Assembly (NCBI GenBank): GCA_028873125.1 | Contig: JAGWMQ010000025.1 | Span: 1 to 33,098 of the forward strand | DNA length: 33,098 nt | Direction: 5' to 3' | Origin: Verrucomicrobiota bacterium | GTDB lineage: Bacteria > Verrucomicrobiota > Verrucomicrobiia > Limisphaerales > UBA11358 | Shown here: in pieces, positions 1 through 8,000 of the stretch | How the letters are laid out: every line of letters begins with the position of its first letter | How positions within the stretch are numbered: position 1 is the stretch's first letter | The notes under the pieces: model-generated | Told to the model about the DNA's origin: nothing | Databases searched by the model: none | The model's input: the letters and a program-made list of their open reading frames with translations, nothing else | Translations under genes and position numbers: made by a program

Positions 1-776
1 AGTTCCTGGACCTTTCGGCCGCCGAATTCCATTTCCACTTTGATTTGCTTTCCCGCGGTGGCCATTTTCAGGACCCTGGCCTTGAGCCGGATTTCCTTGA
101 ACGTCTTGTTCGCCCTGGCGACGACGTAACGCGCCAGGTCGGGATCGGCCCCGGTCAGCACCGCGTCCAGCGCCTCGGCCAGGACGATCCGGCTGCCGAG
201 CGCGGCATACACGGTGCCCAGTTCCATGCCGATGTAGCCGCCGCCGACCACGAGCAGGTTTTCAGGCACGTTCGGGATTTCCAGCGCCTCGGTGGAGGTC
301 ATCACGCGCGGGTTGCCCAGATCAAAGGCCTTGGGCATCGCGGCCAGCGAGCCGACCGCCAGGATGGCCCGTTCGAATTCAATGAACTGCTGGCCCTGGT
401 CGGTTTCCACGCGCAGCGTCTTCGAGTCCTCCAAGTAGCCGCGCCCCCGCACCACCTGGACTCCGCGCATCTGGGCCAGCGACGCCACGCCGCCGCCGAG
501 CTTCTCCAGAATGGACTCCTTCCATGCGCGCAACTTGTCCAAATCCACCGTCGGTTCGGCGAAGGCGATGCCGCGATGGGCCGATTCGCGGGCCGCGCTG
601 ATTTGATGGGTCGCGTAGAGCAGCGCCTTGGACGGGATGCAGCCGCGGTTGAGGCAGACGCCGCCCAGCCGTTTCTCGCGCTCGACCAGGATGACCTTTT
701 TGCCCAGGTCCGCCGCGTAGAACGCCGCCGCGTAGCCGCCCGGCCCCGCGCCGACGACGACGATTTCGGTTTTCAT
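1..776 (-). CDS. lpdA: Dihydrolipoyl dehydrogenase (E3), 3' end cut by window edge
   Basis: This flavoprotein disulfide reductase reoxidises the dihydrolipoyl arm of 2-oxoacid dehydrogenase E2 and passes electrons to NAD+ in the cytoplasm. The 258 residues visible begin with an FAD-binding GAGPGG motif (about residues 9-14). They carry the redox-active pair in CLNRGC (Cys41 and Cys46) and an NAD-binding GGGYIG further on. The C-terminal dimerisation domain with the catalytic His lies beyond base 1. I chose the ATG at 776 because the conserved MKTEIVVVG start follows it; an in-frame ATG at 785 would add three residues. The gene lies directly behind the E2 gene, whose stop is at 788, so the two are almost certainly co-transcribed. 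The family assignment is secure; which 2-oxoacid complex it serves is not visible. Confidence 0.95.
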   Translation of the reverse strand, partial: MKTEIVVVGAGPGGYAAAFYAADLGKKVILVEREKRLGGVCLNRGCIPSKALLYATHQISAARESAHRGIAFAEPTVDLDKLRAWKESILEKLGGGVASLAQMRGVQVVRGRGYLEDSKTLRVETDQGQQFIEFERAILAVGSLAAMPKAFDLGNPRVMTSTEALEIPNVPENLLVVGGGYIGMELGTVYAALGSRIVLAEALDAVLTGADPDLARYVVARANKTFKEIRLKARVLKMATAGKQIKVEMEFGGRKVQE

Positions 777-787
777 CGAATCCATAA

Positions 788-2065
788 TCAAATTTTCAGC
801 GCCGCTTCCTTGAAATTCTCCAGGGCCGCGACCAGGTCCACGGCAAACCGCGCCGCTTCGCCGCCGTCAATCACGCGATGGTCATAGCTCAGGGCCAGCG
901 GCGTCATCAGGCGCGCCACCACCTTGCCTTCTCGGACGACAGGCTTGAGCGCGCCCCGGCCCAAACCGAGGATCGCCACTTCGGGCAGGTTGACGATGGG
1001 CGTGAAATGCCCGCCACCAATCGCCCCCTGATTGGAAACCGTGAACGAGCCGCCCTTCATTTCGTCCGCGGAAATCTTCCGGTCACGCGCCCTGGCCGCG
1101 AGTTGTTCCAGTTCCTTCGCCAGATCCAAAACGGACTTTTTGTCCACGTCGCGGATCACCGGCACGAGCAGCCCCTGCTCGCTGTCCACCGCGATGCCGA
1201 TGTGAAAAAATTCCTTGAGGACGATGTCCCCGGCCGCCTCATCCAGGCTGGCGTTGAAAATCGGATGCCGCTGCAACGTCTCCACCAGCGCCTTGAGCAC
1301 CAGCGGCGTGAGCGTCAGCCGCGCGCCCTTCTTTTCATATCTGGCCCCGAATTTCTTGCGCAAGGCGTTCAACCGCGTGAAATCCGCATCGTCGAACTGC
1401 GTCACGCGCGGCACGGCGTTCCAGCTCTCGGCCATCCGCCGGGCGATGACCTGGCGCAGAGGCGTCAGCGGCTTTCTCACCACCGGCCCCCATTGTGAAA
1501 AATCCACCGGCACGGCGACCGGCTTGGCAGGCGCGGTTGCGGCGGCACCCCGGACCCTGGCCGCGGCGGTGATGAGCCGTTGAACGTAAGCACGCAAATC
1601 GCCGATGACGATGCGTCCGCCCCGCTCGCTGCCGCGGATGGTGCGCAAATCAATCCCCAGTTCGCGCGCGATTTTGCGGATGGACGGCGCGGCGGCGGGC
1701 GGGACGGTTGAAACGGGTTGTTCCTCCTGGTTCTCGATGTTCTCGGTAGGGCGCGTCACTCCGTGCGCGCCGGCCGCGGGCAGCGGACTGCCCGCCCTAC
1801 CAGTCGCCGCCCGTGCCGGCGCGCCGCCGCCGCCGGTTTCATTCAGAGAGAGGATGCACTGTCCGACACTGATGCGCTCGCCGGCCTTCACGAAAATTTT
1901 CGTGACAACCCCCGACGCCGTGGAGGGGATCGAAGCCACGGCCTTTTCATTTTCCAGCTCCAGGATGGCCTGGTCCTTGGCGACCGTGTCGCCTTCCTGC
2001 ACGAAAAGGTTGACCACCACGCCCGAATCGGCCCCTTCGCCCAGCTTGGGAAGTTTCACGTCCAT
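788..2065 (-). CDS. 2-oxoacid dehydrogenase E2 (dihydrolipoamide acyltransferase)
   Basis: E2 core enzyme of a pyruvate- or related 2-oxoacid dehydrogenase complex; it transfers the acyl group from its lipoyl arm to CoA. It has 425 residues. A single lipoyl domain spans about residues 2-75, with the lipoylation Lys41 in ELENEKA. A peripheral-subunit-binding domain lies at about 124-163, and the catalytic acyltransferase domain at about 197-425. The catalytic motif is DHRVIDG, with His396 and Asp400. The gene lies directly upstream of E3 and 51 nt downstream of hisD. The linker between lipoyl and binding domains (residues 89-107) is encoded by a 57-bp inverted-repeat element that looks inserted. 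No E1 gene is visible. The single lipoyl domain does not settle whether the substrate is pyruvate or a branched-chain oxoacid. No good Shine-Dalgarno precedes the ATG. Confidence 0.95.
   Translation of the reverse strand: MDVKLPKLGEGADSGVVVNLFVQEGDTVAKDQAILELENEKAVASIPSTASGVVTKIFVKAGERISVGQCILSLNETGGGGAPARAATGRAGSPLPAAGAHGVTRPTENIENQEEQPVSTVPPAAAPSIRKIARELGIDLRTIRGSERGGRIVIGDLRAYVQRLITAAARVRGAAATAPAKPVAVPVDFSQWGPVVRKPLTPLRQVIARRMAESWNAVPRVTQFDDADFTRLNALRKKFGARYEKKGARLTLTPLVLKALVETLQRHPIFNASLDEAAGDIVLKEFFHIGIAVDSEQGLLVPVIRDVDKKSVLDLAKELEQLAARARDRKISADEMKGGSFTVSNQGAIGGGHFTPIVNLPEVAILGLGRGALKPVVREGKVVARLMTPLALSYDHRVIDGGEAARFAVDLVAALENFKEAALKI
1745..1801. repeat. 57-bp REP-like inverted-repeat element inside the E2 gene
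   Basis: The ends are perfect 9-bp inverted repeats, GGTAGGGCG and CGCCCTACC. Between them sit two further hairpins. One is at 1751-1770: GCGCG/CGCGC plus CAC/GTG around a 3-nt loop, with one bulged T. The other is at 1776-1795: GCGGGCAG/CTGCCCGC around CGGA. Folded, this is a three-way junction. The length is 19 codons and it begins and ends on codon boundaries of the E2 gene, where it encodes Gly/Ala/Pro-rich linker residues 89-107. I recall similar sequence turning up in Verrucomicrobia genomes, but could not search for it. Confidence 0.75.
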
Positions 2066-2116
2066 ACAATCAACAAACGGACAGCATGAAGAAAATTGCC
2101 GCCGCTTTCCAGAAAT

Positions 2117-5041: not shown

Positions 5042-8000
5042 ATGAGGACGAGACTTTCAAACGCTGCCGGGGATTGCGGCATCGTTTTGGCGGTTTTGAC
5101 GTTTTCCACATCAAGTCCCGCCCAAACGAATTGGGGCGATTCAACCGTGCCGGTGGTGACCATTTGGGCCACCGACCCAATCGCTTCCGTATCCGGCGAC
5201 ACAGGCACGTTCACGGTGTATCGCTACGGCGACACCAACCTGACTTTGAACGTGTATTATCAGGTCGGCGGCACGGCGTCCAACGGCGTGGACTATGCGC
5301 CGATTTCAAATTGGGTGACAATTCCGGCCGGCGCGCGCATCAATACCATCACCATCACTCCGATCAATTTGGGTCAGTCGAACATCCAGACCGTCGTCCT
5401 GCAACTGGCCCCTTCGCCGATGGCGAATCCGGTCAATTTTTATTCCATCGGCTGGCCCAGCAACGCGACCGTTTACATCGAAGGCAACGGGGTCACTAAC
5501 ATTCCTCCCGATGTGAACATTGTCCATCCAACAAACGGCGAAACCTTTTTCGGGCCAACCAACATTTTCCTGTCTGCGTCAGCCTTCGACCCGGATGGCT
5601 CGTATTACTCCGTCACGAACGTGGAATTTTTTGCCGGCACCAATGACCTTGGCCCCGGGTGGGAACTCCCGATAATGAGTATGCCTTTTATCGGTTATCA
5701 GCCCCCTTATGAGTTCAACTGGCCAGGTGTACTGCCGGGCGACTACGCCCTGACGGCGGTGGCAACGGACGACGGTGGCGACGCGACCACCTCCGCGCCG
5801 GTCAACATCACCGTGCTGCCCGGCCCGCCGCCGACCAACCTGCCTCCGGTTGTGGAAATGACCTCGCCGACGAGCGGTGAAACATTCGTCACGCCGACAA
5901 ACATTCCCCTCTCGGCATTCGCCGACGACTCCGACGGCCAAATCACCAACCTGGAGTTCTTCGCCGGCACCAATGACCTGGGCAGAGGCCTATTTCAGGT
6001 TGGCCCGCAAGGGACGTTTTACTGGTCTTTGGCTTGGGCCTATCCGCGACCTGGAGTTTATGCCCTGACGGCAGTCGCCACCGACAACGGCGGCGTTTCT
6101 ACGACCTCTGCGCCGGTGGACATCAGCGTCCTGTCCCCTTCGGTCGTCAATATCATCAACCCAACCGATGACCAGTCGTTTTACGCGCCGACAAATATTC
6201 CCATCCAGGTTGGTGGGTTGGATGATTGGAACCGCATAACCAACGTCGAGTTTTTTGCCGGAACAAATAGTTTGGGCTTTGCCACCCCGAATTATCCAAC
6301 TGCGAGTTTTCCGGGTCCTTATTTCGCCTCTTTGGTTTGGAGTAATCCGCCCGTTGGCCTCTACGCCTTGACCTCGCTCGCTACAGGCTATGGCGGGGTT
6401 TCGGCAACTTCCGCTCCGGTCAACATCACCGTGTTGCAAGGCCCGCCGCCGACCAACCTGCCGCCCCTGGTTATAATTTCCACCCCGACCAATGGCGAAG
6501 CCTTCACCGCGCCGGCCAATTTTTTTATCCTCGCCCCGGCCTATGACCCGGACGGCCTTGTCAAGACGGTGGCCTTTTTTGAAGACGGCAACCTCCTGGG
6601 CATTTTCACCAATCCGCCCCCGCCGCCGCCCGGCAGCGAAATGCCGGTCATTCTGCCCCAGTTTTACTGGACCAACGTGCCCGCCGGCAATTATGTGTTG
6701 GCGGCGGTGGCTACCGACGACGGCGGCGCCTCCACCACTTCGGCGCCAGTCAACATCAGCGTGCAACAAGGACCGCCGTCGGTTGTCCGAATCATCAGCC
6801 TGACCAATGGCGCCGTATTTTACACGCCGACAAATATTTTTATATCGGCTTTGGTGCCCGACCAATTCCCGGCAACCAACGTCGAGTTCTTCGCCGGGAC
6901 GAACAGTCTGGGTTTTGGCACACAGCCACCCCTTGCCCTTCCTCCGTTTGGGAACTACCAATTATATTTTTTAGTTTGGAGCAATGCGCCAGCCGGCGCT
7001 TATGAATTGACGGCGGTTGCTGAAGGTGTTTCCGGCTCTATTACCTCCGCCCCGGTCAACATCACCGTGCTGCAAGGCCCGCCGCCAACCAACCTGCCGC
7101 CGCTGGTCAGCATCTTCATCCCGACGAACGGAGCCGTGTTCTTCGTGCCGACCAACGCCAACGTTTCGACCAGTATCGAGCTATTGGCCAAGGCCAGCGA
7201 CCCGGACGGCGCCGTCATCGACGTCGAATTTTTTGCCGGCACGAACGATCTTGGCCCCGCTTCGCCGGTGGTGCTCGACCCGCCGGGCGTCAACGGCGTG
7301 ACCGGCCTCGTCTATTTCATTTACTGGCGCAATCCGTCCACTGGTAATTACGCGCTGACCGCCGTGGCCACCGACGATGGCGGCGCGTCCACCACTTCCG
7401 CTGCTGTCAACGTCACCATCCAACCCGGTCCGTCGCCGGTCACCAACCTGCCGCCCGTCGTGCGCATTATCAGCCCGCCCAACGGCGCGGTGTTCCGGGC
7501 GCCCATCAACCTGCCGCTTTTTGCCTATGCGTATGATCCGGGCGCTTCGAGAACGGCAGTGGGATTCTACGACGGAACAAACTTTCTCGGCCTGGGCAAC
7601 CCCATTTCAACGCCACTTCCACTTTCAGCCAGCGGAACCATGCTCGACCCCATTCCCGTGCCGCCGACGGCTCTTTCCACCAATATCTATTTTCTGGTCT
7701 GGAGCAACGCGCCGGTCGGCAATCACGTTCTGACGGCTGATGCCGTGTTTGGTTTCAACAACATTAGCTTGGTTTTGAGGGTTGTTTCCGACCCGGTCAA
7801 CGTTACCATCCTGCCGCCGCTGCCGCCGCCCACCAATCGTCCGCCGGTTGTCAGCATCGTCGCGTCCGATCCGGTGGCGATTGAAGGCACCAATTCTTGG
7901 ACCTGGCGGGGCGAAACCAACACCACCCCAACGTGGGCCGACTGGCGGATGGGAGGATGGCGCTGGTTCACCAATTCCGGTCCCAAGACCGCCACCTTCA

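Follow-up and report, generated by a model that had tools for sequence, protein, structure and literature searches.

A 57-bp block within the gene for a dihydrolipoyl acyltransferase (E2) of a Verrucomicrobiota bacterium is very probably a RAYT-type REPIN, a copy of which entered the E2 linker and survived there as an open, small and flexible peptide in a place that tolerates change. We infer from the sequences that a RAYT moved the element, that selection acting on the peptide let it survive, and that the present-day E2 is a working protein. In the mechanism that we propose, a RAYT would move a REPIN copy into the E2 gene and selection would remove those copies that lie in frames with a stop codon or a disruptive peptide. 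The surviving copy would then be one in a stop-free orientation and frame, encoding a small flexible peptide, in an inter-domain linker that is free in length and sequence.

The block and its host gene

The window, i.e., the whole stretch of DNA analysed, comprises 33,098 nucleotides at the start of contig JAGWMQ010000025.1, and the source genome is an assembly of 3.74 Mb in 205 contigs, 94% complete. The block at 1745-1801 is bounded by perfect 9-bp inverted ends, GGTAGGGCG at 1745-1753 and CGCCCTACC at 1793-1801. As DNA it forms two hairpins (-22.3 kcal/mol, z -2.7; 2 of 200 shuffles equal); together the ends and the fold confirm the terminal inverted repeats and paired hairpins described for it in an earlier note on this DNA. 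The mRNA strand folds into a single long hairpin (-39.9 kcal/mol, z -3.6), a value equalled by none of 200 shuffles. Both halves of the block start with GTAG, a head of the GT(A/G)G form, and continue as a folding GC-rich palindrome.

On the minus strand the block makes up exactly 19 codons on codon borders, corresponding to residues 89-107 (GRAGSPLPAAGAHGVTRPT) of a 425-aa E2 ORF. It lies between the Pfam domains Biotin_lipoyl (residues 2-73) and E3_binding (residues 124-157), so that the ORF and the domain matches together bear out the earlier description of an in-frame segment of 19 linker residues between the lipoyl and subunit-binding domains. The best solved relatives of the 425-aa protein are pyruvate dehydrogenase E2 chains. 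The features of this region are as follows.

1745..1801, minus strand: REPIN of 57 bp, two inverted GTAG-headed palindromes with a 3-bp spacer (inverted ends, copies, folds)
1745..1771, plus strand: left palindrome (type L), GTAG head at 1746-1749 (copies; head and palindrome as described in the part of PMC2817692 used here)
1775..1801, minus strand: right palindrome (type R), inverted, GTAG head on the minus strand at 1800-1797 (copies)
788..2065, minus strand: E2 dihydrolipoyl acyltransferase gene, 425 aa (Pfam domains, solved relatives)
1847..2062, minus strand: lipoyl domain, residues 2-73 (PF00364)
1595..1696, minus strand: peripheral subunit (E3) binding domain, residues 124-157 (PF02817)
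803..1480, minus strand: acyltransferase catalytic domain, residues 196-421 (PF00198)
1..785, minus strand: 5' part of the next gene, read from its N-terminus as a putative dihydrolipoyl dehydrogenase and truncated at the contig end (translation)

An Rfam scan of window positions 1500-2100 returned no family at the gathering score. Elsewhere in the window, positions 5504-7510 contain several imperfect direct repeats spaced about 300-350 bp apart, perhaps encoding a protein with repeated domains.

Copies of the repeat and a cognate transposase

With up to 3 mismatches, the source genome holds 45 left-half sites vs 1 for the reversed control and 35 right-half sites vs 0 for the control, so the objection that the block might be single-copy in its own genome fails; the window itself contains only one full copy. 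The left half (up to 2 mismatches) is present in 39 of 49 genomes of the genus, with 0 control matches in every genome, and a stricter left-half pattern detects the repeat in 82 of 293 genomes sampled from the order, with up to 244 strict matches in a single genome. Among the copies read in the source genome were 44 inverted pairs and 11 solo palindromes; the pairs occur as L/R, R/L, L/L and R/R, with spacers of 2 to 34 bp. Judged by its copies and their anatomy, the block is a dispersed REPIN, and its family is spread through the order Limisphaerales. Among the loci compared, neither a rule for the target site nor a clean base-level empty site was found.

The cognate RAYT was located by reading an array locus, to which the route through PF01797 did not lead. 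In a related genome, G009, tandem REPIN arrays flank a 157-aa ORF on both sides. The encoded protein narrowly passed the NCBIfam model NF047646 (REP-associated tyrosine transposase; 81.2 bits vs a cut-off of 80) and matched no Pfam family at E 0.001. In the locus L165 (G009:C59:49500-54500) the arrays on either side of the RAYT gene have a period of about 85 bp. Six RAYT homologues with at least 79% identity were found, one of them with a stop codon. Five of these six loci were fetched (L200-L204), and in all five the RAYT is flanked by the block's REP on both sides, in inverted arrangement; the sixth, on contig 34 of G009, has left-half sites on both sides. A RAYT locus at 62% identity shows a single REP match, as does one among 24 more distant loci. 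Because the close loci are flanked while those at 62% identity and beyond hardly are, the block palindrome and one RAYT clade go together. Of 34 Y1_Tnp (PF01797) loci scanned in the genus, only one has REPs nearby, and three others have bare GTAGGGCG octamers.

The source genome assembly (205 contigs, 94% complete) yielded no RAYT of the cognate clade; its best match has 32% identity and carries a stop. Similarly, genome G055, despite its 93 left-half sites, gave just two short RAYT matches and no hit to PF01797. Where no cognate RAYT was found, the transposase may have been lost, left unassembled or active only for a time. The flanking REPs and arrays suggest that the REPIN was very probably moved by a RAYT transposase. 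In a further locus of G009 (L164, G009:C36:8500-12000), a methyltransferase-like ORF at 1815-2711, with no Pfam match, contains two in-frame REPINs, and a Y1-type transposase gene lies just upstream. The earlier note had proposed a mobile repeat turned into coding sequence: a dispersed, transposase-associated repeat in frame agrees with this, and the translation of the 19 repeat-derived residues as E2 linker is read from sequence only.

REPINs inside and outside genes

We assessed coding with a codon score, for which long ORFs from the fetched loci served as training set, and counted a REPIN as lying in a gene when both flanks were coding in one frame through the REPIN. Of the 44 REPIN pairs in the source genome 41 were scored, 3 being omitted for short flanks. 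Eight of the 41 lie in frame in genes (scores of at least 13; the other 33 score at most 4). Pooling eleven genomes (the source genome and samples from ten others) gave 29 of 127 REPINs in genes at a score of at least 5; another 14 REPINs, from a set with one locus per genome, were left out of this pool as such. In G055, 0 of 27 sampled REPINs lie in genes. REPINs are depleted from genes yet not absent there, because 8/41 and 29/127 compare with 273 of 358 random positions coding at score 5 in the same source-genome loci and with 199 of 312 control positions in loci of nine of the ten other genomes. The expectation that repeats of this kind are normally intergenic holds for 33 of the 41, but the block is no single oddity, with seven more in frame in its own genome.

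The 29 REPINs in genes are strongly biased in frame, with 21, 5, 2 and 1 in the four open orientation and frame classes, counts that are not all independent. Short spacers of at most 7 bp are commoner inside genes (9/29) than outside (5/98). Outside genes, 65 of 98 spacers are multiples of three, with modal lengths of 15, 21, 33 and 36; these REPINs belong to few subfamilies, and descent may explain the pattern.

In-frame insertion affects many unrelated proteins, with 8 cases in the source genome and 21 among the sampled copies of the ten others. In the source genome the hosts are E2, a MutS-domain protein, DnaE, a DEAD/DEAH-box helicase with HA2, UvrB, an AcrB-type transporter, XdhC and lipoamide dehydrogenase. 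Across the genus, Pfam matches identify a radical-SAM/TRAM protein, RsmB/F, zinc alcohol dehydrogenase, YbeY, type ISP and Eco57I domain proteins, MetH, leucyl-tRNA synthetase, a Mur ligase, RecG, UvrA, a lipoyl ligase family protein, EPSP synthase, a DEAD RNA helicase, an amine oxidase and XdhC. Two of the 19 host proteins of the genus had no Pfam match, one of which, the protein with two inserts, is methyltransferase-like. Hosts acting in replication and repair are prominent (MutS-like, DnaE, UvrB, helicase, RecG and UvrA; L005, L030, L045, L062, L314, L329). Two genes carry a REPIN at an identical place in two genomes, namely YbeY in G042 and G009 (L272, L330) and XdhC in the source genome and G044 (L052, L099).

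Comparison with solved structures places the inserts at interruptions of the alignment. In lipoamide dehydrogenase the insert coincides with an alignment gap, and the alignment of UvrB is split into residues 4-405 and 438-689 around residues 409-434. The insert-bearing lipoamide dehydrogenase is encoded on contig 189, near another E2-like gene; the idea that two subunits of one complex both carry the insert was weakened, since the E3-like gene adjoining the E2 of the window appears by eye to have none in the loop that the contig 189 enzyme has filled.

We then compared the UvrB loop across the genus. UvrB was matched in 45 of 49 genomes, and 30 loci were fetched, 28 of them with both anchors. 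In the loop that follows the SATP motif (L336-L354), the anchors are separated by 4 residues in 11 of the 28 loci and by 20-81 residues, repeat-like in character, in 17. An insert of the block's family was recognised only in the source genome. Ten of the 17 loop inserts match other fetched loci at E < 1e-5, and at least three palindrome families could be distinguished by eye. These matches indicate that the UvrB loop holds unrelated repeats in different species.

Recurrence of the insert in the E2 linker

The E2s of relatives within the genus were compared, as the earlier note had in view: the linker could be read in 45 E2 genes, and the block is present in two of them (source genome and G023) and not in the other 43. 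Both blocks are 57 bp long and differ at 6 bases and 2 residues. A lengthening of the swinging arm by the insert, as had been suggested, is weakly supported. Between two fixed columns the source linker measures 54 residues vs a median of 57 (range 45-66) in the 43 insert-free members of the genus; in the wider E2 set, the carriers' median is 50 vs 43 residues, a gain of 7 and not of 19.

Beyond the genus, we searched with two queries, scoring 8000 candidates and keeping the best 120 of 5,679 homologues for the source E2 and the best 120 of 6,093 for the insert-free protein P0057. The same peptide occurs in the linker of 49 among the 120 homologues listed for the source E2, a count biased by the insert in the query, and of 40 among the 120 listed for P0057. 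The pooled set comprises 169 rows (152 proteins and 17 genome rows; the insert-bearing metagenome E2s are protein sequences only), in which a linker-only scan counted 51 rows with the REPIN peptide, 22 with a second peptide (for example VAQASRLPAP and VGQASRLPAP), 94 in which neither occurs and 2 that are unclear. A palindrome in L124, GTAGGGCAGGCGTCTCGCCTGCC, gives a matching sequence to the second peptide when translated, and L124 also holds an inverted near copy of it, suggesting that it is probably another GTAG REP. Seven motifs of the other frames were found in none of the 169 linkers; P0134 may hold a decayed copy.

How did so many E2s come to share one insert? A single old insertion into the E2 linker, handed down, repeatedly lost and spread among relatives by linker recombination, comes close to being an even prospect, and falls somewhat short of it. 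All 51 recognised rows have the insert at one linker spot, in one orientation and one frame, and homologous exchange could make use of the lipoyl and binding domains on either side. Among 41 carriers, the mean pairwise identity of the block (0.84) is close to that of the core (0.86), which also speaks for such a history. Residues between the insert halves number 1 in 41 rows, 8 in 9 rows and 7 in 1 row, and these spacing forms require at least two copies or internal change, which counts against a single insertion.

The trees speak on both sides. On a core tree built without the linker, the REPIN state changes 32 times, at least 10 of these changes falling on branches with SH-aLRT of at least 95. 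Over the whole set, shuffled labels need 44 changes on average and in 0 of 500 trials as few as observed, a clustering of the state that favours the single old insertion. A thinned tree of 87 rows around P0057 needs 25 changes (23-25 in a bootstrap that had not fully converged), of which at least 9 are forced, and there the rows are almost as scattered as under shuffling, which counts against that account. Because 79 of 500 shuffles were as low as observed, REPIN presence within this inner clade appears nearly unrelated to descent. Sisters only 2-4% apart in the core, for example P0053 and P0107, have different linkers.

The two carriers of the genus provide a closer view. Fourfold sites of the source genome and G023 differ at 4 of 15 positions in the block and at 65 of 159 outside the linker (p 0.41), the similar divergence expected of an old shared insert, and from these sites we first read the two as sharing the insert by descent. 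The trees have weakened this reading without making it untenable. When the linker is left out, the E2 tree joins G023 to its neighbours G022 and G045, both with insert-free linkers, apart from the source genome. Holding the source genome and G023 together is not rejected on E2 alone (AU p 0.086) and is just rejected on E2 and UvrB combined (AU p 0.036). Since the tree of UvrB alone makes the source genome sister to the group of G023, G022 and G045, one gain followed by two losses in the genus would be possible.

Setting the E2 linker beside the UvrB loop, it is tempting to speculate that both are landing pads, where unrelated GTAG palindromes are repeatedly gained, lost and exchanged, with orientation and frame held constant in E2. 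The REPIN peptide, the second peptide or none would then be interchangeable linker modules, swapped among sister lineages by insertion or recombination and possibly kept because a peptide or an mRNA hairpin at a domain border helps. We put this forward tentatively, as a conjecture more doubtful than the single old insertion. Repeated insertion, linker swapping and selection are each compatible with the protein data as causes of the E2 scatter. Earlier accounts of intragenic repeats show them spread across many different genes. Should the E2 and UvrB sites take up palindromes repeatedly, in E2 always in one frame, they would amount to a naturally replicated test of whether the linkers that mobile DNA contributes to proteins are neutral or useful, and the same recurrence would inform the target choice of RAYTs. 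Annotators would in that case also gain a peptide signature, GRAGSPLPA...GAHGVTRPT, for repeat-derived segments.

A third account, in which the peptide is a functional linker module under selection and E2s benefit from gaining it, seems unlikely to us. The confinement of all 51 rows to one frame, with none of the seven other-frame motifs in any linker, would fit such a role, as would the finding that 18 of the 19 insert positions keep a single residue in 33 or more of 41 rows, in an otherwise variable linker. Recent gain also accounts for this conservation and for the near-equal identities of block and core, however, close sisters differ in whether they have the insert, and the same peptide occurs in unrelated proteins.

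Other origins of the block

That the block is a MITE of an ordinary DDE transposon, and not a RAYT-type REPIN, is very improbable. Its shortness, its inverted ends and the abundance of strict left-half matches, up to 244 in one genome, would suit a MITE, and G055 is rich in copies without a PF01797 hit. A GTAG head and a hairpin in both halves, the solo halves, the L/L and R/R pairs, the tandem arrays beside the RAYT and the specific flanking of one RAYT clade all argue for the REPIN. An ordinary Ala/Pro/Gly-rich linker that resembles the repeat by chance, such linkers being normal in E2 and the neighbouring sequence being of that kind, was rejected as practically untenable on the copy counts against near-absent control matches, the DNA identity to the dispersed repeat over both halves and the perfect inverted ends.

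Comparison with known systems

The association of REPs with RAYTs was described by Nunvar et al. (2010; PMC2817692), and REPINs were defined by Bertels and Rainey (2011; PMC3116915). On the portions of these two papers used here, our elements resemble theirs in consisting of inverted REP doublets with spacers, in having a RAYT flanked by the same REPs and in clustering beside the RAYT. In Pseudomonas fluorescens SBW25, according to the excerpted text of PMC3116915, only 14 of 1,067 16-mers overlap genes, unlike the present family with 8 of 41 REPINs in frame in genes.

GTAG REPs were reported from Verrucomicrobia by Di Nocera et al. (2013; PMC3733652), together with REPs lying within genes of several species. 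In the sections of that report available to us, the verrucomicrobium O. terrae has the most intragenic GTAG repeats, and many of the host genes act in replication and repair, e.g., uvrA and DnaE2, with uvrB a host for the CGTC kind. Flexible linkers or loops are proposed there as neutral sites for REPs, and different REPs are noted near one recB site in two Xanthomonas species. Among the open-licence papers listed in our literature searches, judged by title and opening of the abstract, none dealt with REPs in E2, and a shared gene site was remarked on only for this Xanthomonas recB (PMC3733652, as excerpted). REPs inside genes are a known kind of element; their recurrence at one place of E2 in one frame seems to be new.

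The present family is like the GTAG REPs of Di Nocera et al., as far as the excerpts of PMC3733652 describe them, in being made of GTAG palindromes, often in head-to-head pairs, that lie in conserved genes, many of them for replication and repair. It differs from that set in belonging to another verrucomicrobial order, in having an identified cognate RAYT, in its E2 and lipoamide dehydrogenase hosts and in the one-site recurrence in E2 and UvrB. It also works in a manner similar to the Rickettsia palindromic elements, which the parts of PMC10969869 and PMC3733652 used here present as dispersed palindromes that sit in frame within numerous unrelated proteins, without being a member of them. The Rickettsia REP-like elements, as the same portions of PMC3733652 have it, carry a CGTC head and have no known transposase, whereas the block in the E2 linker combines a GTAG head with a RAYT.
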